Shown here piece after piece: positions 402 through 21,905 of a stretch of 33,082 nt of DNA. The position numbers and the translations under genes are program-made. This stretch comes from a virus. The DNA lies in IMG/VR virus record IMGVR_UViG_3300051212_001202, positions 1 through 33,082 of that record; one strand, 5' to 3'. Each line of letters opens with the position of its first letter. Position 1 is the first letter of the stretch. Under the pieces are notes generated by a model, which saw nothing but the letters and a program-made list of their open reading frames with translations, did not search any database and had not been told where the DNA came from.

Positions 402-1199
402 ATGGCCCGCATTTTACTGGTCGTCAGTGACCTGCACTGTGGATCCGAGGTCGGGCTCATGCCACCCGACACCACCGTCCGCACCGGGAACAAAATCTCC
501 TTTGGCGGGAACGTGCACCAAGAGTGGCTGTGGGCGTGCTGGACGGATTTGCAGGCGCAGTTTGCCCGGATCCGCGGGAAGGATAAGTACGCCCTACTGC
601 TCAACGGGGACCTGACCGAGGGCATCCACCACAAATCCATCGAGAGCCTTACGCAATCGATCGAGGATCACGCCAACATGGCGATTGAGGCCGTGGGCGG
701 TCTGGCCGCCAAGGCCCACAAGACATTCGTCACGTTGGGCACGGAGGTGCACACCGGCCTCATCGAGCACTACATCGCCAAAAAGATCGGGGCCGAGGGC
801 AAGGGGGCGAAGGCCAAGTGGCTTTTCCGTATGGCCGGATGCCTCGTGGACGCCACCCATCATATCGGCGTGACCAGTCGCGCCTATCTGGAGGCGACCA
901 GCCTTTCGATCACGATGGGCAACGCCCGCCTAAACAGCATGCGCTGCGGCCAGGAGCCGGCTCGGATCTACCTCCGCGGGCACCGGCACACCGGGGGCTG
1001 GTTTTCGGATGGGCAGGGGATGATCGGCGTCACCGGCGGCTGGCAGTTTTTGACCCGCTACGGCCGCAAGGTTGTGCCCGACGCCATTCCAAGGCCCAGC
1101 GCCATGGTGCTCGACTGGCGGCGCAAGCGGGACGGAGAGCTGCCGGAAGTGACGGAGATCGTATTTACGCCCGATCAGGATGAGATCGCCGAAGTTTAA
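402..1199 (+). CDS. Calcineurin-like metallophosphoesterase
   Basis: This 265-residue protein has the metal-binding pattern of the calcineurin-like phosphoesterase superfamily. D10-x-H12 sits in SDLHCGS, G69-D70 in LLNGDLTEG, GTEVH at 113-117 replaces the usual GNHE box, histidines follow at 153-154, and GHRH at 193-196 is the C-terminal GxH motif. Such enzymes hydrolyse phosphomonoesters or diesters with two metal ions; phage members are often implicated in nucleic-acid processing, but the substrate here cannot be told. The GNH to GTE change is the one departure from the textbook motif. The gene follows a 36-nt gap containing TTTGACA and no Shine-Dalgarno sequence. Its 3' end overlaps the next gene by 20 nt, so the two are probably co-translated. 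Confidence 0.85.
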   Translation: MARILLVVSDLHCGSEVGLMPPDTTVRTGNKISFGGNVHQEWLWACWTDLQAQFARIRGKDKYALLLNGDLTEGIHHKSIESLTQSIEDHANMAIEAVGGLAAKAHKTFVTLGTEVHTGLIEHYIAKKIGAEGKGAKAKWLFRMAGCLVDATHHIGVTSRAYLEATSLSITMGNARLNSMRCGQEPARIYLRGHRHTGGWFSDGQGMIGVTGGWQFLTRYGRKVVPDAIPRPSAMVLDWRRKRDGELPEVTEIVFTPDQDEIAEV

Positions 1200-1464
1200 G
1201 GCCGAGGATCTGCAAGCGGCCGCCTGGCGTGCCGCCTTTAAGAAAATCAACCAAAGCCAGGCGGAGACAGTGCCGCCCGGATGGTACACGCCTGACGAGA
1301 TTGCGGAGAAGCTGGGATACTGCAAAGAGGTGGCCATGCAAAAATGCCGGGAGATGGCCAAGGTGGGGATGGTGGAGCGGCGGGATTTCAAAGTGCAGTG
1401 GGGCCAGATCGTGCGGCCGCGTCCCCACTATCGCCTGATAAAAAAGAGCGCAAAAAGCGCCTAA
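1180..1464 (+). CDS. Predicted winged-helix DNA-binding protein
   Basis: The product has 94 residues and is basic overall. Residues about 33-70 (WYTPDEIAEKLG, then a helix ending KVGMVERRDF) look like a helix-turn-helix with a following wing, as in small phage regulators that read a DNA half-site. The start lies inside the phosphoesterase gene (20-nt overlap), suggesting translational coupling. No family could be named. It ends just before a hairpin at 1467-1489 and probably is the last gene of the transcript that starts in the lysis region. Confidence 0.65.
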   Translation: MRSPKFKAEDLQAAAWRAAFKKINQSQAETVPPGWYTPDEIAEKLGYCKEVAMQKCREMAKVGMVERRDFKVQWGQIVRPRPHYRLIKKSAKSA

Positions 1465-2583: not shown

Positions 2584-3069
2584 TCAGTCTAGCGGTGCGT
2601 CTGGATGACGGGCTCGAAACTGCAACTTCTTCTGTTCGTTAACTTCTTTTTTATCAAAAAAGTAGTAAAGCCTTTGCCCTCCGAAATCGTCACGAATGGG
2701 GCCTGGCACAATTATGCACTTGGCAGGTTCGTTCACAGCTAAGTAGGGGGCATCAGGATGATCCGCCACTAGGTAGGTCCCGCCCTCCTCTCCGTCCTGA
2801 GTCTTTTTCCAGTAGGTAATTTCCAAAATAATTTTGCCGTCCTGCTTGTGTCTTGCTGCCACCTTTGCCGGGGTGACCCATATCATTGTCGCCGTAAGAT
2901 TGGTTGGCCTTTCTTTTTCAGCCTTCATCGCAGCCAGTTGGGAATCTGTGGGTATTCGGACAGACCTGCCTCCGCCTCCTACCGCTTGGATGGGGTCCCT
3001 GTATAGCTGCGCCTCAGCACTAAAACCGGCAATGATTATACCAGCTGCAGTCAAAGCCTGTTTAATCAT
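2584..3069 (-). CDS. Secreted protein of unknown function (lysogenic conversion candidate)
   Basis: This 161-residue protein has a clear Sec signal peptide: MIKQ, a hydrophobic stretch at residues 5-15, and an AEA-Q cleavage site at about 20/21. The mature part (about 140 residues) has no cysteine pair and no recognised catalytic motif, and reads as a mixed alpha/beta soluble domain with a basic C-terminus. It would be periplasmic or exported. Its ATG overlaps the stop of the RHH regulator upstream by 4 nt, so it should be translated whenever that regulator is made, meaning in the lysogen. Base composition is more AT-rich than the virion genes, which fits a cargo (moron) gene. Possible roles such as superinfection exclusion or host-surface change are inference. 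Confidence 0.75.
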   Translation of the reverse strand: MIKQALTAAGIIIAGFSAEAQLYRDPIQAVGGGGRSVRIPTDSQLAAMKAEKERPTNLTATMIWVTPAKVAARHKQDGKIILEITYWKKTQDGEEGGTYLVADHPDAPYLAVNEPAKCIIVPGPIRDDFGGQRLYYFFDKKEVNEQKKLQFRARHPDAPLD

Positions 3070-3275
3070 ATCCCTTTTGTCCTAGTTTTTGCCCGTGACC
3101 GTCCGCCCGCATACAGAGCAGGGCTCTCGAAAGTAAAACCCGTGTCGCGGGCCGCCTCCTTAAGAATCAGCTGGGTCACGTAAGTCGATAAACTCATGCC
3201 GGCCCTTTTAGCCATCTCCATGCCTCTGGCTTTAACCTGTTTGGGTAACGTTAAATTTGTGGCTTCCTTAGCCAT
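3066..3275 (-). CDS. Ribbon-helix-helix regulator, leftward (lysogeny side)
   Basis: This 69-residue protein has the Arc/CopG-type pattern: a short beta strand (ATNLTLP, residues 5-11), helix A (KARGMEMAKRAG) and helix B after the SLS turn (SLSTYVTQLILKEA). Such proteins dimerise and insert the paired strand into the DNA major groove. It is paralogous to the rightward RHH protein at 3387: TNLxLP, G, EMA, SLS and QLI are shared in register. The gene begins at, or one base from, the predicted transcription start, behind a promoter covered by a perfect palindrome, so autoregulation is likely. It overlaps the secreted-protein gene by 4 nt. By position it would act as the phage repressor, although RHH family members also serve as antitoxins or partition regulators. 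Confidence 0.8.
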   Translation of the reverse strand: MAKEATNLTLPKQVKARGMEMAKRAGMSLSTYVTQLILKEAARDTGFTFESPALYAGGRSRAKTRTKGI

Positions 3276-3294
3276 TTACGCATTTTATGCGTAA
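3276..3294. promoter_or_regulatory. Palindromic operator O1
   Basis: TTACGCAT-TTT-ATGCGTAA is a perfect palindrome with 8-bp arms. It abuts the start codon of the leftward RHH gene (ATG complement at 3273-3275) and covers that gene's -10 box. Its core CGCAT-N3-ATGCG recurs at 3360-3372. Confidence 0.75.
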
Positions 3295-3310
3295 AAACTG
3301 CGCATGTCAA
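3282..3310 (-). promoter_or_regulatory. Sigma70-type promoter for the leftward lysogeny unit
   Basis: On the minus strand, TTGACA (3305-3310) and TAAAAT (3282-3287) are separated by exactly 17 bases. Only 6 nt separate the -10 from the ATG, so the start point falls on or next to the start codon and the mRNA should be leaderless. The -10 is embedded in operator O1. Confidence 0.75.
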
Positions 3311-3351
3311 ATTGACCTAAAAAAAAGATTAATCATTGTTGACGATTTTTG

Positions 3352-3378
3352 TTGACGCACGCATTTCATGCGCATAAC
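3352..3378 (+). promoter_or_regulatory. Candidate rightward promoter for the RHH-xis unit
   Basis: TTGACG (3352-3357) and CATAAC (3373-3378) flank operator O2. The 15-nt spacer is short and the -10 is poor, so this promoter is weaker or needs activation. The predicted start would again lie at or just before the ATG at 3387, where no Shine-Dalgarno sequence is seen. Confidence 0.4.
3360..3372. promoter_or_regulatory. Palindromic operator O2
   Basis: CGCAT-TTC-ATGCG is a perfect palindrome with 5-bp arms and the same core as O1. It lies between the -35 and -10 of the candidate rightward promoter. A further TGCGCATG near 3299-3306 may be a half-site. Confidence 0.65.
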
Positions 3379-3386
3379 ACACGCAC

Positions 3387-3563
3387 ATGCCTCGCAGCCT
3401 TTCCTCAAAAAACGATGGCGCTGAGGTCACAAATTTGTACCTGCCGGTCCGCATTAAAAAGCTGGGCCGTGAGATGGCGGAGAAAAAAAACCTGTCTTTG
3501 TCACAGCTGGTAGCGCAGCTGATCGAGGAAACCGTAGCCGATGAAATGGAGACGGTGCGATGA
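3387..3563 (+). CDS. Ribbon-helix-helix regulator, rightward (Cro-like position)
   Basis: This small protein has 58 residues. Strand EVTNLYLP (residues 13-20), helix A (IKKLGREMAEKKN), SLS turn, helix B (QLVAQLIEETVADE) give a compact RHH fold. It is a paralogue of the leftward RHH protein, sharing TNLxLP, a Gly, EMA, SLS and QLI in register. Its stop codon overlaps the ATG of the excisionase-like gene (ATGA at 3560-3563), so both are made together. In gene order it takes the place of Cro: divergent from the repressor and linked to excision. No Shine-Dalgarno sequence precedes the ATG. The function is inferred from fold and position. Confidence 0.75.
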   Translation: MPRSLSSKNDGAEVTNLYLPVRIKKLGREMAEKKNLSLSQLVAQLIEETVADEMETVR

Positions 3564-3916
3564 CCGCTTCTGAGTACCTTTCGGCCGCCTTGGCTAAGCG
3601 GGGTTTTAACCAGGCGATGAACATGCGGGAGCTGGCGGCTGCGTACGGGATTGCGTACGGGAAGATCCGCCGTTTTTCGCTGGAAGCTGATTTTCCAATG
3701 TCCCGCGGGATTGTGTTTCCGAAGGATTTTGACCGCTGGCTGGCAAAAGGCCGGCGTCCACGTGGCGGCGCAGGTCCTCAACAAAGTGGCGCTGGTACAT
3801 TTCATGCACCAGCGTCGAGGAATGGTTTACCAGCCGCATCGCCACGGATTGCGGGATCCCGGCTTTCCGCAGGTTGGTCACCCGCGTTGCCCGCAGGGAG
3901 TGAAACGTATGTTTGA
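3560..3916 (+). CDS. xis: Excisionase-like winged-helix protein
   Basis: This 118-residue reading frame is coupled by ATGA to the RHH gene before it. Residues about 20-64 (MNMRELAAAYGIAYGKIRRF through SRGIVFPKDFDRWLAKG) match a helix-turn-helix plus wing as in small Xis/MerR-like excision factors, which bend attP DNA and set recombination direction. After residue about 66 the sequence turns into Gly/Ala/Pro/Ser-rich low complexity. That part lies opposite the conserved catalytic end of the integrase gene, so it may be merely tolerated. The gene overlaps the integrase by about 310 bp tail-to-tail. The symbol is a functional guess. Confidence 0.6.
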   Translation: MTASEYLSAALAKRGFNQAMNMRELAAAYGIAYGKIRRFSLEADFPMSRGIVFPKDFDRWLAKGRRPRGGAGPQQSGAGTFHAPASRNGLPAASPRIAGSRLSAGWSPALPAGSETYV

Positions 3917-4772
3917 ACAGGCCGCAAAGATTGAGCAGCTGGCGCCATGCCACGGAGACGCGGGACCCGTGCCCCGGCCAGTCAAAGGCGTGCCGGCGGC
4001 CGGCGCCTTTCAACCTTTCCAGCAGGGGCCGGATGCCCTTGGGGATTGGGATGGTGTAAGCGCGGGTCGTTCCGCCTTTGGGCTCCGGGAAGGTGATGGT
4101 GTCCGCGTGCAAGTCCACCAGGCGCAGGTCCAGCCTTGTTTCCCGCAGGCGGCAGCCGGTGTGGTAGCCGATTTCAAAGCAAATCTGCATCCATTCCCGG
4201 GCCGGATCCATTTCCACGTCGTGAGCCAGAAAGCGGCGGACGCGGGCGATCTCCTCATCGGTAAACACCGGCCGCTTGCTGACGGGGCTTTTCTTGGTGC
4301 GGTAGTCCATCATCTTGACCGAGCTGACCAGCCCCAGCAGCCGGCCCTGGCGCAGGATCCATTTCATGGCCTTGATGTCGTCGCAGGCCAGGTTGCGGCA
4401 GACGGGCTTGCCATTGGTGCGGGGGATGGATACGCGCCAAGCGAGGTACTGCTCCGCGTGGATGGGGGCAAACTCCTCCATGGACAAGTTGCGCTCGTCC
4501 AGAAAGCGGGACAGCCAGCGCCAGCTGTTGCGGTAGTGCCAGCGGGTGGAGGTGCATACGGGGTGGCTGTCGATCATGCCTCCGACCCAGCTGTGATCCG
4601 TTTTGAGCGTCCGCTCGTGGACCGAGAGCTGCGCGGCCTCCTCCTGGGCCTTGGCCCGGTGGAGCGTGTTGTCCGTGCGGAAACGGGTGGCCTTGGCTCG
4701 CCATACGCCCTCGGCGGTTTTGTAGCGGATCCAGTACCAAGGAGAGTCTTTTCTTTTGTAAATGGCGGCCAC
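3606..4772 (-). CDS. int: Tyrosine-family site-specific integrase
   Basis: The product is 388 residues from a GTG at 4772, chosen because it gives the usual integrase N-terminus (AAIYKRKDSPWYWIRY). A GTG at 4793 would add 7 residues, and neither start has a clear Shine-Dalgarno sequence. An Arm/SAM-like N-terminal domain is followed by a catalytic domain with R208 (GCRLRE), H291-x-x-R294 (HSLR), H317 (VNHSS) and the nucleophile Y326 (EMYQRH). It catalyses attP x attB recombination by the phosphotyrosine mechanism. The attP site with the tRNA 3' end lies about 90 bp upstream of its start. The last 50 or so residues are low-complexity and overlap the excisionase-like gene on the other strand, while the catalytic residues lie outside the excisionase's conserved part. 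Confidence 0.93.
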   Translation of the reverse strand: MAAIYKRKDSPWYWIRYKTAEGVWRAKATRFRTDNTLHRAKAQEEAAQLSVHERTLKTDHSWVGGMIDSHPVCTSTRWHYRNSWRWLSRFLDERNLSMEEFAPIHAEQYLAWRVSIPRTNGKPVCRNLACDDIKAMKWILRQGRLLGLVSSVKMMDYRTKKSPVSKRPVFTDEEIARVRRFLAHDVEMDPAREWMQICFEIGYHTGCRLRETRLDLRLVDLHADTITFPEPKGGTTRAYTIPIPKGIRPLLERLKGAGRRHAFDWPGHGSRVSVAWRQLLNLCGLFKHTFHSLRATRVTNLRKAGIPQSVAMRLVNHSSTLVHEMYQRHFVEDLRRHVDAGLLPASGQNPSETQSRGTLENQLPAKNGGSSRTQSRTQPPAPACSSPG

Positions 4773-4823
4773 GTCACAAGCGTACCAAATCACTTAAAAA
4801 CACAAACAAATAAAGGGTAATCA

Positions 4824-5036
4824 ATGACAACTAATGACACAAATTTTACTTATAGTCCGCTCCGTGGGTTCAAATCCCACCCCGTCCGCCGTTATAATGA
4901 CAACAAGTTAAGCGGTCAGTGTAGCAAAAACGTAACACAGCAAACCGCTGGCGAGGCCGAAAAAGCCCGCGAGGTTATGGCGCTGGTGCGCGGGCTTTCG
5001 GCGCAAAAAACCGCGTGGCTGTGGGGGGCCCGATGA
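4824..5036 (+). CDS. Doubtful reading frame running through attP
   Basis: This 70-codon frame begins six bases after AAAGGG (a fair Shine-Dalgarno sequence) and ends with an ATGA overlap on the next gene, which argues for it. Against it, codons 14-23 are the tRNA T-arm and acceptor end, so integration would cut it in two, and the residues show no recognisable fold. A shorter in-frame start at 4977 would leave only a 19-residue leader peptide, which could couple translation to the gene at 5033. Listed as uncertain. Confidence 0.25.
   Translation: MTTNDTNFTYSPLRGFKSHPVRRYNDNKLSGQCSKNVTQQTAGEAEKAREVMALVRGLSAQKTAWLWGAR
4864..4890 (+). other. attP: attP core: 3' end of a tRNA gene
   Basis: GTGGG-TTCAAAT-CCCAC is a complete T-psi-C stem-loop, followed by CCCGTCC as the 3' strand of an acceptor stem, a G in the discriminator position and CC. 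No 5' half of a tRNA is present, so this is a fragment kept for integration into a host tRNA gene, not a phage tRNA. The G discriminator and the GCC ending would suit a serine tRNA. The next base is G rather than A, so the CCA end may not be fully encoded by the host gene. The fragment reads rightward, towards the early operon. Confidence 0.85.
4869..4898 (+). promoter_or_regulatory. Candidate early promoter using the attP core
   Basis: A perfect TATAAT at 4893-4898 lies 18 nt after TTCAAA (4869-4874), which is the T-loop sequence of the attP core. It points to the early operon at 5033. The core is restored on both sides after integration, so the promoter would survive in the prophage. Confidence 0.45.
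4962..4998 (+). promoter_or_regulatory. Leader hairpin before the early operon
   Basis: AAAGCCCGCG (4962-4971) and CGCGGGCTTT (4989-4998) are perfect 10-bp arms around a 17-nt loop. No T-run follows. It could attenuate transcription entering from the host tRNA gene or shield the start at 5033. Confidence 0.45.
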
Positions 5037-18019: not shown

Positions 18020-20158
18020 ATGAAGCACCCCCCGCTTGTTTCGATCGCCCTCATCGCCGGCCCCGGCGAGGGGGCGATCTTGCGTAGACTCATCGAATCC
18101 GCCCGTGGCCTGTGGGACGAGGTTGTCGTCGTGGCGGCTGTCGGCAAAAACAGCTCCGACGATCTGCGCCAATCGCTCCAGGACGCGGCCGGAGAGGCTG
18201 GCGTGTTTGCGGAGTATCACAACGCCCCGGAGAACGCGGAGTGGCCGCATATTGATAATTTTGCCGCCGCCAGAAATCAGGCGTTCAGCATAGCCAAGGG
18301 CAAATACGTTCTCTGGGCGGACTGCGACGACGTCTTTGAGCCCGGCCAAGCGGCCCTACACCGTGCCCAGATTGAGGCGAGGGTAGCTGGCAAAGAGGAC
18401 TGGGATCTGTTGGTCACCATCTATGACGTGCAAAACAGCGGCATGCGCAACAACCGCCGGGAGCGGATTTTCCGTCGGATGCCGGACGGCAAGCTCTCCG
18501 CTTATTGGGAGCGACAGATCCACGAGCGGGTCAAACCCGTTGAGGGCGCCAGAATTGGCATGGCCAATCACCTGCGCATCCTGCACGCGCCCGCAGGGCC
18601 GAAGGTCACATCGTCCGAGCGCAATAAGCGGATTATTGCCAGCCGGCTGCAGGGCATCGGCATGGAATGGTACTACCTATGCCAGGAGCATTTTCTAAAA
18701 AACCAATATAAGGAGGCCATCGGTCCGTGCCTCTTGGCTCTGGAGCACGACGACGTGGGCGCCACGGAAAAATATCAGCTCCACGTGCAGGCATCCATGA
18801 TGTTGGCCGAGCGCACCAAGCGGCTGGAACACCTGGGCAAGGCCATCACGCTTTCCCCGATGCGCCGGGAGGCCCACGGCCTTTTGGCCAGCGATCGGAT
18901 GGATCACGGGGATTTTTCCACGGCCTATCACATTCTCAAACAGGTGGACGCTATGCCGTCCACGCAGGACTGGAATCAGGAGAATCGCTGGTATAAGCAC
19001 CTACCCCGGCAGCTGATGGCGCAGTGCCTGCGGGCGCTCGGACAGCATGACGACGCCAAAAAGCTGGTCCGGGATGGATTCCGTGCGGCGTGGGGCCGGA
19101 TCACCGTCATCCATCTTGGGGAGCCGGATGACTGCCTAAAATCCATGGCGCTCTATACGGACTGCGCTGACAATTCCAACGGCATCCAGCACCTGCTCCT
19201 GACCCAAAAGGGCCATAAGATTGCCGACCGCCTGCATGTCGTGAGCGCCGAGGAAGCACTCCAGGAAGCGCTGGGGGACATCATTCTTACGGTCAAAGCC
19301 AAGGACGCCCCGCTGCCCGGCCTGCGCTGGGATGCGGCCCTGCTGGAGGATGAGACCGTGCCCCCCGGGACGGAGAAGTTGCCCAGCCCTATCGACAAAA
19401 AAAGCCGGGTCGTGATTGGCCTGACCACTACCCCAAAACGGATCCACACCGTCCTGCCCACGATCGAGAGCCTGCTGGCTCAGTCCATGCCGGCCGATGA
19501 AATAATTTTATCCGTCCCGGAGAAACTGGCCCGCACCGGGGAGCGGTTCCCGGAGATTCCTCCCGCCCTGCAAAAGCTGGCCGATGATGGAAAAATCACC
19601 ATTTACCGAAGCCGCGATCACGGCCCGGCGACAAAGTTTGTCGGAGCTGTGCAAAACGGCATCGACGCCAAGACGCTTGGCCTAGACGACTTCGTGATCT
19701 GGTGCGACGACGACATCCTTTACAGCCCGCGGATGGTGCAGACGCTGGTGGAAAATTGCCCCGACGGGTCGGCCATAGGCCTGTGCGGCTTTTTTATGAC
19801 CGGGCCCAAGGGCTACGCCATCGCACCCGACCACCTCGGCCACGCGGAGATTCTGGAGGGCTTTGGTGCGATCGCCTGCCGGCTGAAAGACATGCCCGAT
19901 CTTGGCCAGTTCCCGTCTTTCACGGCCAGGGAGTTTACCCAGCTGGACGACAAGGGCCGGGCTCAGTTCCTGGCGGATGATTTTATGACGTCCCACGCCC
20001 TGCGAAAAAAAGGGACGCGCACGCTAGTCTGCGCCACGCCGGACTTTAACCGCACCAACGGTCTCAAGATCCGTGCCGAGGGATTGGGCGAGGATGCCTT
20101 ACAAAACAACAAGGGCACGGGCGGAAACCTTGCCGCCTACGCATTGCTCAAGGGATGA
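18020..20158 (+). CDS. Two-domain glycosyltransferase with a TPR-like middle
   Basis: This 712-residue protein starts with a GT2-type domain: VSIALIAGPGEGAILRRLIE, then NFAAARNQAF and KGKYVLWADCDDVFEP (DxD-type D101-D104), and WERQIHERV, a hallmark of family-2 transferases. Residues about 210-360 are helical repeats resembling TPRs, which usually bind protein substrates. From about 457 a second transferase-like domain begins (VVIGLTTTPKRIHTVLPTIE) with DFVIWCDDDIL (D563-D565). It should move activated sugars onto an acceptor in the cytoplasm. The gene follows the capsid gene and its hairpin, has no Shine-Dalgarno sequence, and is ATGA-coupled to an FkbM methyltransferase. Capsid or tail proteins are the likely acceptors; this is inference. 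Confidence 0.8.
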   Translation: MKHPPLVSIALIAGPGEGAILRRLIESARGLWDEVVVVAAVGKNSSDDLRQSLQDAAGEAGVFAEYHNAPENAEWPHIDNFAAARNQAFSIAKGKYVLWADCDDVFEPGQAALHRAQIEARVAGKEDWDLLVTIYDVQNSGMRNNRRERIFRRMPDGKLSAYWERQIHERVKPVEGARIGMANHLRILHAPAGPKVTSSERNKRIIASRLQGIGMEWYYLCQEHFLKNQYKEAIGPCLLALEHDDVGATEKYQLHVQASMMLAERTKRLEHLGKAITLSPMRREAHGLLASDRMDHGDFSTAYHILKQVDAMPSTQDWNQENRWYKHLPRQLMAQCLRALGQHDDAKKLVRDGFRAAWGRITVIHLGEPDDCLKSMALYTDCADNSNGIQHLLLTQKGHKIADRLHVVSAEEALQEALGDIILTVKAKDAPLPGLRWDAALLEDETVPPGTEKLPSPIDKKSRVVIGLTTTPKRIHTVLPTIESLLAQSMPADEIILSVPEKLARTGERFPEIPPALQKLADDGKITIYRSRDHGPATKFVGAVQNGIDAKTLGLDDFVIWCDDDILYSPRMVQTLVENCPDGSAIGLCGFFMTGPKGYAIAPDHLGHAEILEGFGAIACRLKDMPDLGQFPSFTAREFTQLDDKGRAQFLADDFMTSHALRKKGTRTLVCATPDFNRTNGLKIRAEGLGEDALQNNKGTGGNLAAYALLKG

Positions 20159-20721
20159 GGGACGAGCCTTGGCTGGACGGGGCGGTGGCCGACCTGTTGA
20201 CCCGCTGCGGGCGCAGGCTGGCCATCGACATCGGGGCCAATCACGGCACGTGGTCCGTCATGCTCAAGCCGCTTTTTGCGCGGGTCATCGCCGTGGAGCC
20301 GGACGAGCGCTGTGCGGAAATTCAAGGCGTGGATTTTTACCGCTGCGCCGTCGGCCATTCGTCCGGCTTTGCCACGCTGTGGATTTCGGCGCGGCCGGAC
20401 CAAAATCACCTGGGGGATCTCCACCCGCTGCATCAGTCCGGCGGCCGACCCGTCCGAGTGCCTATCGTAACCTTGGACGAACTGTGCGGCCAAGAGGCTC
20501 CAGACTTTGTGAAGATCGACGTCGAGGGGGCGGAGGATCAGATTCTTTCCGGCGTCTGCGATCCGCAGTTCTACCGCTCCACCTCCTTTCTAGTGGAAAG
20601 CCACGCCCGGGAGGCCAAGCTGGCGGCGATTTTGAAGGGCTGGAATCGTCCGTTTGTGAAAATCCCGCATCCTGATCCGTGTCCAGACCACTGCTGGTTG
20701 GCCGTCCCTCCTTTGACATAA
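20155..20721 (+). CDS. FkbM-family methyltransferase
   Basis: The product is 188 residues. RLAIDIGANHGTWSVMLKPL is the SAM-binding motif I, VIAVEPDERC motif II, and IVTLDELC followed by DFVKIDVEGAEDQIL is the diagnostic FkbM block. Members methylate hydroxyls of sugars and other small groups using S-adenosylmethionine. The start overlaps the stop of the two-domain glycosyltransferase by 4 nt, so the pair should act on the same product, most simply by capping a transferred sugar. It is slightly short for the family at the N-terminus. TTTGACA overlaps its end. Confidence 0.85.
   Translation: MRDEPWLDGAVADLLTRCGRRLAIDIGANHGTWSVMLKPLFARVIAVEPDERCAEIQGVDFYRCAVGHSSGFATLWISARPDQNHLGDLHPLHQSGGRPVRVPIVTLDELCGQEAPDFVKIDVEGAEDQILSGVCDPQFYRSTSFLVESHAREAKLAAILKGWNRPFVKIPHPDPCPDHCWLAVPPLT
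20713..20718 (+). promoter_or_regulatory. TTGACA motif 19 nt before start of 20732
   Basis: TTTGACA lies at the end of the methyltransferase gene, before the GTG at 20732. No -10 box. One of six at this spacing. Confidence 0.35.
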
Positions 20722-20731
20722 GGCGTTCCGC

Positions 20732-21043
20732 GTGACCGAGCTGGACACCCTGATGACCGCCGGCCTTTCCGACATGATCGCCGGGGCCGGATCCGTGACC
20801 GCCTCCATCGGAGGCACAACGGTCACTGGCATGTATACGCCCGGCGAAAAGAGCGGGGAGCTGGGCATGGGCGGCCTCGTCACGCCCGCCCCGGCAGAGT
20901 TTGTCTACCCAGCCACGGCCGCCAGCGCTCCGTCCCTGTTGGGCACGATCACCGTGGCTAACGCCACCAAGCGAGTGATGAGCACCCAGGAGGACGGCGG
21001 TCTGATCACCGTCACGCTGGGCAATCCCGAGGACGTGCGATGA
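20732..21043 (+). CDS. Head-tail joining protein candidate
   Basis: The product has 103 residues from a GTG (AAGGCG upstream). It has a short N-terminal helix, Gly/Thr-rich strands (SVTASIGGTTVTGMY), and a C-terminal strand pair (GLITVTLGNPEDVR). In size and place, before the tail terminator, it matches lambda FII-type joining proteins. No specific motif was recognised, so the call is positional. The stop overlaps the next ATG by 4 nt. Confidence 0.5.
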   Translation: MTELDTLMTAGLSDMIAGAGSVTASIGGTTVTGMYTPGEKSGELGMGGLVTPAPAEFVYPATAASAPSLLGTITVANATKRVMSTQEDGGLITVTLGNPEDVR

Positions 21044-21459
21044 GCCTGCGCCTTTCGTTTGAAAGCAAGCTGGCGGATTACCTTACGGCCGTCAGTCCGT
21101 CCAAGCCGTCCGCTTTGCAAGTGCAGGCTGCCCATAAAATCACGGAGCTGGAGATGCCCGCCCTCGTCATCCACGCGGAAAGCGCGGAGACCATGGAGGA
21201 GGGGATCCAGACCAATACCCGCAAGATCACCGTGCAAGCCAGCGTCATGACGCCCATCCAGGAGACGGCCACCGTGGCCAGCCACACCGCCGCCTTTTTA
21301 TGGGCGGAGGCCCGGCTCAAGGATCGGGCCGCTATGATCTCCGGCATCACCGCCGGCGTCACCATCCTGGGCAGCCACATCCAAGCCGAGCGCACCGAGA
21401 CCAACGAGCGGGCGATGGCCGACAGCCTGACCGCCGTCTTTTACGTAGACCCGGCGTGA
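21040..21459 (+). CDS. Tail completion/terminator protein candidate
   Basis: The product is 139 residues. Alternating helices and strands (ELEMPALVIHAESAETMEEG, RKITVQASVMTPIQET, then a helix FLWAEARLKDRAA and a final beta strand NERAMADSLTAVFYVDP) fit the minor tail or tail-terminator proteins of siphoviruses (gpU/gpZ-like), which form the hexameric ring ending the tube. The start overlaps the upstream gene by 4 nt (ATGA), and its stop overlaps the GTG of the cupin gene. Family assignment is by pattern and position. Confidence 0.6.
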   Translation: MSLRLSFESKLADYLTAVSPSKPSALQVQAAHKITELEMPALVIHAESAETMEEGIQTNTRKITVQASVMTPIQETATVASHTAAFLWAEARLKDRAAMISGITAGVTILGSHIQAERTETNERAMADSLTAVFYVDPA

Positions 21460-21905
21460 TCGGCAAAACCACGGAGCAGTTCTTTGGCTCCGTGACGGAG
21501 CTGTCCTGGTACGAGGACGGCCGCGGCAAGCTGATGGAAATCCTGCGGGGCGAGGGGGTGGATTTTGGGCAAGCCTACGTCACCACTTGCCGCCCCGGGG
21601 TGGTGAAAGCATGGCATCATCACGAGCGCCAGACCGACAGGATGATCTGCCTTCACGGCGCCCTGCAGGTCGGCTTGGTGGATTTGCGGGCAGAAAAGAC
21701 CGCCACCGTTTATTCCAGCCCGCACGCGCCTCGCCTGGTGACCATCCGCCCGGGCATCTGGCACGGCTTTTCGGCGGTGGGGGCGGAGGAGGCGATTGTC
21801 CTTAATATCCCCGACCGCGCCTACGACAGAAAAAATCCAGACGAGCAACGTCGTCCGGCCCACGATCCGGCCATCCCGTACCATTGGGGCGTCTTGGACG
21901 GTTGA
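21456..21905 (+). CDS. RmlC-like cupin, putative sugar-nucleotide epimerase
   Basis: The product has 149 residues from a GTG overlapping the stop before it. GVVKAWHHHERQTDRMICLH (residues 48-67), then LVDLRAE, TIRPGIWHGFSAVG (97-110) and the C-terminal NPDEQRRPAHDPAIPYHW follow the order seen in dTDP-4-dehydrorhamnose 3,5-epimerase (RmlC) relatives. These are cupins that epimerise keto-sugar nucleotides in rhamnose-type pathways. The histidine cluster at W53-HHH and Y123 are candidate active-site residues. No other nucleotide-sugar synthesis gene is present, so it would tap the host pool. Being placed between tail genes is unusual. A non-catalytic cupin role cannot be excluded. Confidence 0.7.
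   Translation: MIGKTTEQFFGSVTELSWYEDGRGKLMEILRGEGVDFGQAYVTTCRPGVVKAWHHHERQTDRMICLHGALQVGLVDLRAEKTATVYSSPHAPRLVTIRPGIWHGFSAVGAEEAIVLNIPDRAYDRKNPDEQRRPAHDPAIPYHWGVLDG

Follow-up and report, generated by a model that had tools for sequence, protein, structure and literature searches.

The DNA analysed here (the window) is the full 33,082 nt of a 33-kb virus record, IMG/VR IMGVR_UViG_3300051212_001202 (positions 1 to 33,082). Because its end is joined to its start in one relative (L002), the window is a circularly permuted and probably near-complete phage genome. It carries a compact locus (Table 1) in which a cargo gene and a gene for a small ribbon-helix-helix (RHH) protein, RHH-L, are read on the minus strand and, across a gap of 111 bp, a second RHH gene, RHH-R, and an excisionase-like gene encoding a small helix-turn-helix (HTH) protein are read on the plus strand. 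A minus-strand tyrosine integrase gene and a tRNA-like attP sequence follow, beyond which lie nuclease-like, ssb-like, exonuclease and primase-helicase genes, all on the plus strand.

Table 1. Features of the RHH locus, in window coordinates
Feature	Position	Strand	Details
Cargo gene	2584..3069	-	161 aa; signal-peptide-like start; overlaps the end of RHH-L by ATGA
RHH-L	3066..3275	-	69 aa; proposed lysogeny repressor
O_L1, predicted operator	3276..3294	.	TTACGCAT-TTT-ATGCGTAA; over the P_L -10, abuts the RHH-L start codon
P_L	3282..3310	-	TTGACA - 17 bp - TAAAAT; from promoter scan; predicted start ~3275
O_L2, predicted operator	3288..3304	.	TGCGTA-N5-TGCGCA; one mismatch to the pattern; the whole P_L spacer
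P_R, proposed	3352..3380	+	TTGACG - 17 bp - TAACAC; from the sequence and the layout in relatives
O_R, predicted operator	3358..3374	.	CACGCA-N5-TGCGCA; the whole spacer of the proposed P_R
RHH-R	3387..3563	+	58 aa; proposed Cro-like lytic repressor; PHROG Arc-like repressor match
Excisionase-like small HTH protein	3560..3916	+	Residues 1-64 well folded in the model; overlaps the end of RHH-R by ATGA
Tyrosine integrase (int)	3606..4793	-	PF00589, E=6.7e-9
tRNA 3'-end-like sequence	4855..4890	+	GTGGGTTCAAATCCCAC; probable attP core, read from the sequence

Two paralogous RHH genes and their neighbours

The initial annotation had described two small, related RHH genes lying back to back, and this is borne out: both open reading frames are present, divergently oriented, and their products align without gaps, with 18 of 34 residues identical (E=1e-10 in a single comparison) and about 40-50% identity in the core. 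Equally correct was the linkage of RHH-L to the cargo gene and of RHH-R to the excisionase-like gene, each through a 4-bp ATGA overlap. Proteins of the RHH (MetJ/Arc) superfamily read DNA with a short strand, which two helices follow. The AF2 model of RHH-R (pLDDT 77) shows an extended segment and two helices, and its best match among solved folds is the Arc repressor of P22 (Foldseek; TM 0.88 by target), with weak E-values, as is usual for so short a protein. For RHH-L, the profile matches Arc and CopG weakly, and there is also weak similarity to the CcdA antitoxin family; single Pfam matches of both window proteins fall below the gathering cut-offs. We accordingly place both in the RHH superfamily, RHH-R by its predicted model and RHH-L by homology.

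The name "excisionase-like" reflects the position of the gene and the predicted HTH shape of its product, for which a PDB fold search with the model returned unspecific matches only and a profile search returned none. Over window positions 3606-3916 this reading frame is antisense to the 3' part of int (an overlap of ~310 bp), an arrangement also kept in relatives, where the corresponding frames are mostly 111-122 aa long. At the tRNA 3'-end-like GTGGGTTCAAATCCCAC, the probable attP core judging by its sequence, no whole tRNA gene was found in the window. Elsewhere, window positions 1180-1464 encode a small winged-helix-like protein with a weak MarR_2 match, adjoining a phosphoesterase gene, and HTH-like genes occupy the same place in relatives. 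Genes for a family 2 glycosyltransferase, an FkbM methyltransferase and a sugar isomerase-like protein lie among the virion genes (18020-21905), possibly for modification of host-surface or virion glycans.

The initial annotation saw no CI-like HTH repressor, and our Pfam scan agrees with it: no CI-like, S24 or HTH_3 family was found in the ~45 window ORFs. Many small window ORFs have no family match and could hide a repressor missed by Pfam. No induction signal for the proposed RHH switch is visible.

Predicted operators between the two genes

The gap between RHH-L and RHH-R holds both exact copies of the core CGCAT-N3-ATGCG in the window (3279-3291 and 3360-3372), against 0.09 expected from dinucleotide shuffles. 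The longer pattern YRCGCA-N5-TGCGYR, with at most one mismatch, has four window matches, three of them in the gap (3277-3293, 3288-3304 and 3358-3374). A one-mismatch scan of the palindrome was uninformative, unlike the scan for the exact core. A palindrome with the same core had been reported at each start codon. This describes the left side well, where O_L1 abuts the ATG at 3275-3273, but the right palindrome ends ~13 bp upstream of its ATG. The core is indeed shared, although the symmetric arms on the right are shorter (CGCAT-TTC-ATGCG, compared with the O_L1 palindrome given in Table 1).

The candidate operators fall within the -35/-10 region of both P_L and the proposed P_R, the latter being weak by consensus and not reported by the promoter scan. 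Since only 6 nt separate the -10 element from the ATG on both sides, the L and R transcripts are predicted to be leaderless. By eye, relatives show a similar arrangement of operators and promoters.

Conservation and exchange of the cassette

Relatives were collected from IMG/VR with three main seeds, namely the excisionase-like protein, RHH-L and the integrase, an additional RHH-R seed contributing a few loci. The integrase seed is blind to the RHH genes, and the search for other phages with a divergent RHH pair beside int, which the initial annotation had proposed, gave a uniform answer: the pair is present in 52/52 integrase-seeded contigs with enough DNA beyond int, the window included. The remaining contigs from this seed are too short to show it, breaking off within int, shortly past it, or between R and L. 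Among the loci found with RHH-L, R is present in every contig that reaches that far. The phages form two groups, group I (window-like) and group II, in which the genes follow largely the same order. A search of INPHARED, by DNA and with the RHH-L protein, gave no match, and the comparisons therefore use no named isolate.

The gene that follows RHH-L is replaced by unrelated genes, or missing, in relatives, so RHH-L is no dedicated regulator of a single cargo gene, a reading that we rejected on this ground. RHH-L and RHH-R sequences form two separate clades (100/98 support, in a tree built on 36 residues), which implies that the duplication is old and predates the specificity types described below. 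In group I, the C-terminal tail of RHH-L (window 3066-3140; ESPALYAxGRSRAKTRTKGI) is common to the specificity types, and it is absent in group II; its conservation across group I types suggests that crossover points may lie between the tail and the RHH domain.

As to the host, a search of genome contigs with int found one 3.4-kb contig, from a Verrucomicrobiota MAG, on which int of this family and neighbouring phage genes are present and which ends before the RHH genes. The family thus probably infects Verrucomicrobiota, bin contamination being possible for this contig. A search of genome contigs with the RHH-L alignment confirmed nothing. Overlapping samples at the level of phylum (388 genomes), order (62) and class (384) yielded no close prophage of the family, and the int matches and RHH pairs that did turn up were all distant; no family member was found in these genomes except the MAG contig and a more distant element in G079, a genome of the same class as the MAG. 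There, a 3.76-Mb contig holds a distant counterpart of this arrangement in the vicinity of integrase-like and tRNA-Arg genes: its two RHH genes diverge, the one on the minus strand is overlapped by a small gene downstream of it, and TTGCGCAA occurs at either end of the gap. The whole has the look of an integrated element. About 19 kb including this RHH element are repeated at both ends of the contig (L144 and L146), probably an unresolved circular overlap. On two further Verrucomicrobiota contigs (G398:C143 and G399:C53; L132 and L133), a divergent RHH pair adjoins an autotransporter-like gene, and no phage genes were recognised in the neighbourhood; as these neighbours look chromosomal, both were left out of the phage evidence.

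We then classified the L-R pairs by three strand residues expected to face the DNA, from an alignment to Arc and general knowledge of the fold, and distinguished at least four specificity types. Type A combines ANT/PNT in RHH-L and VNY in RHH-R with half-sites GCGCA and GCGTA; type B has KTT in both proteins and half-site ACGTA; type C has KNT in RHH-L, mostly KNV/KNF/KNI in RHH-R, and half-site GCGTA; and type D has RNY in RHH-L, P/QNY in RHH-R, and half-site GCGCA. The half-sites are enriched in the gap over shuffles in type A (GCGCA, 4.9 vs 1.5 expected), B (ACGTA, 5.7 vs 0.7), C (GCGTA, 3.5 vs 0.6) and D2 (GCGCA, 6.5 vs 1.9), and more weakly in D1, whose sites are less regular. In the type B phages L002 and L003, the full palindrome is kept at the R side only.

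Phages with near-identical integrases can carry different types. L106 (type A) and L104/L105 (type B) share 98% identity in int and only 39% in L and 42-44% in R; L108/L111 (A) and L110 (D1) share 98-99% in int, 53-64% in L and 53% in R; and L086/L100 (D2) share ~90-97% in int with type C phages and 44-50% in L. Conversely, distant integrases can share one type, with 44-51% identity in int yet 81-100% in L and 69-100% in R. When L108 is compared with L110, a block of ~700 bp spanning cargo, L, operators and R stands out as replaced, with identity mostly at 50-70% or lower, whereas the flanking DNA is mostly 80-97% identical on the left and 95-100% on the right. In these comparisons, L, operators and R are exchanged as one unit, which is how heteroimmunity cassettes look. 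L and R distances remain correlated after int distance is removed (partial r 0.65, 0/1000 permutations), in a permutation that leaves some phylogenetic dependence.

In type B, the DNA-reading strand is TTLTI in both L and R, and the operator has CGTA instead of CGCA. Because the duplication precedes the types, the shared strand points to parallel change or local gene conversion, suggestive of a match to the CGTA operator; it is probably one event, of little statistical weight by itself.

A proposed switch and its relatives

We propose, with a probability of about 0.7, that L, the operators and R make up the switch between lysis and lysogeny of a temperate phage and also serve as its immunity cassette. 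The two RHH proteins, derived from one duplication, would bind a common operator class (YRCGCA-N5-TGCGYR in this phage) at P_L and P_R, and would repress each other from these shared sites. With L dominant, P_R, which would drive R and the excisionase-like gene, would be shut, and L, produced together with the lysogeny cargo gene, would tune its own promoter. With R dominant, P_L would be shut and R would damp its own promoter, allowing excision and lytic growth to proceed. Assigning L to the lysogenic and R to the lytic arm follows from their partner genes, and is best taken as provisional. The CI/Cro-like logic with RHH folds on both arms, put forward in the initial annotation, gains support from the conservation in 52/52 contigs, the cassette exchange, and the joint change of strand and operator.

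The main rival is that the pair is a secondary module like immI of P22, tuning a lytic helper, and that an unrecognised primary repressor encoded elsewhere keeps lysogeny. In P22, such an RHH pair is subordinate to a primary repressor of the CI type (PMC7549136, PMC8022706), and the small window ORFs lacking a family match would give such a repressor a place. Against this, the scanned window ORFs gave no CI, S24 or HTH_3 match, no antirepressor gene lies beside RHH-R, and the module sits beside int and is universal in its family, whereas P22-like phages vary in immI; we regard this alternative as unlikely. A role restricted to integration and excision, in which R and L would only govern how strongly the excisionase-like gene and the cargo gene are expressed, with no part in immunity, would account for the overlap of RHH-R with the excisionase-like gene and for operators found at these two promoters only, with none at replication genes. 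It is nevertheless rather improbable, as the repeated exchange of whole cassettes as specificity types fits immunity, and less so a private excision circuit.

RHH-R might also act as an antirepressor by mixing, forming inactive or altered L-R heterodimers rather than competing for operators. RHH dimers interlock via their strands, and the core identity of the two paralogs is compatible with this, but R keeps a DNA-reading strand of its own that co-varies with that of L, and mixing alone needs neither, which leaves heterodimers a small chance as the explanation. The similarity of RHH-L to CcdA raises the idea of a toxin-antitoxin module, with RHH-L as antitoxin and the cargo protein as toxin. 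This is highly improbable: relatives that lack the cargo gene, or have unrelated genes in its place, still keep L. A type II system was rejected on the same variability, since it calls for a conserved co-transcribed toxin.

Returning to the lysis-lysogeny switch, we also lean, a shade less firmly, towards a broader proposition: that two RHH paralogs alone form the primary switch of a widespread uncultured phage family, and that their strands and operators have co-evolved into several exchangeable specificity types, so that a few residues of the β-strand set heteroimmunity (e.g., Asn or Thr in both proteins, with CGCA or CGTA). If true, the logic of CI/Cro has arisen from a different fold in both of its arms, and an RHH pair serves as the main switch for an entire phage family, one probably infecting Verrucomicrobiota and for which the phage reference collection searched yielded no relative. 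By what route opposing repressors shift specificity in step with the operators they share is a long-standing question. The natural cassette swaps provide ready-made matched and mismatched repressor-operator sets, with which the joint change in specificity of opposing repressors and shared operators is testable using proteins of 58-69 residues and ~100 bp of DNA.

In the open-access literature searched, no RHH/RHH pair is described as the primary switch of a phage, nor did we meet there an RHH pair next to int that is universal in its family, has exchangeable specificities and comes with no CI in evidence. In phage lambda, CI and Cro are divergent repressors acting on shared operators, the lysogenic arm carries extra genes, and cassette exchange generates specificity types. 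The present locus is similar in its predicted operators, shared between both divergent promoters (P_R being proposed only), in the extra genes on its proposed lysogenic arm, and in the exchange of cassettes between specificity types. It differs in that its proposed repressors are RHH-like proteins (69 and 58 aa) rather than HTH proteins, and have neither a cleavable domain nor a separate cooperativity domain; each promoter has one or two predicted operators, with no induction signal visible. CopG of plasmid pMV158/pLS1 is an RHH repressor that binds a short palindrome covering its promoter. That palindrome is similar in size to the operators predicted here, but CopG is a single repressor and serves plasmid copy control. 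In SSV1, a single RHH protein, F55, maintains lysogeny and has been described as CI-like, with no divergent paralog described in that paper (PMC5569661). RHH-L would resemble F55 as an RHH lysogeny repressor, whereas SSV1 is an archaeal virus with one repressor and tandem-repeat sites.

In P22, mnt and arc-ant are laid out divergently around operators. This immI region encodes a pair of related RHH repressors that are ~40% similar (PMC7549136), of which Mnt serves lysogeny and Arc the lytic phase; it controls ant and is secondary to a CI-type primary region (PMC7549136, PMC8022706). The initial annotation, which itself named Arc and Mnt, had thought a symmetric duplicated RHH pair new as the central switch. 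The novelty is smaller than that, since mnt/arc already forms such a related pair with a lysogenic and a lytic arm, albeit one that is secondary to a repressor of the CI type. Our locus is like immI in having two paralogous, divergently transcribed genes for putative RHH repressors, and the closest solved fold to RHH-R is Arc itself. Unlike immI, it has no ant antirepressor gene downstream of the Arc-like gene, the partner of RHH-R being the small excisionase-like HTH protein; no separate CI-type primary repressor was found by Pfam in the ~45 window ORFs; and the pair lies beside int and is universal in its phage family. With these differences, P22 immI (mnt/arc) is the nearest precedent of the RHH-L/RHH-R pair.
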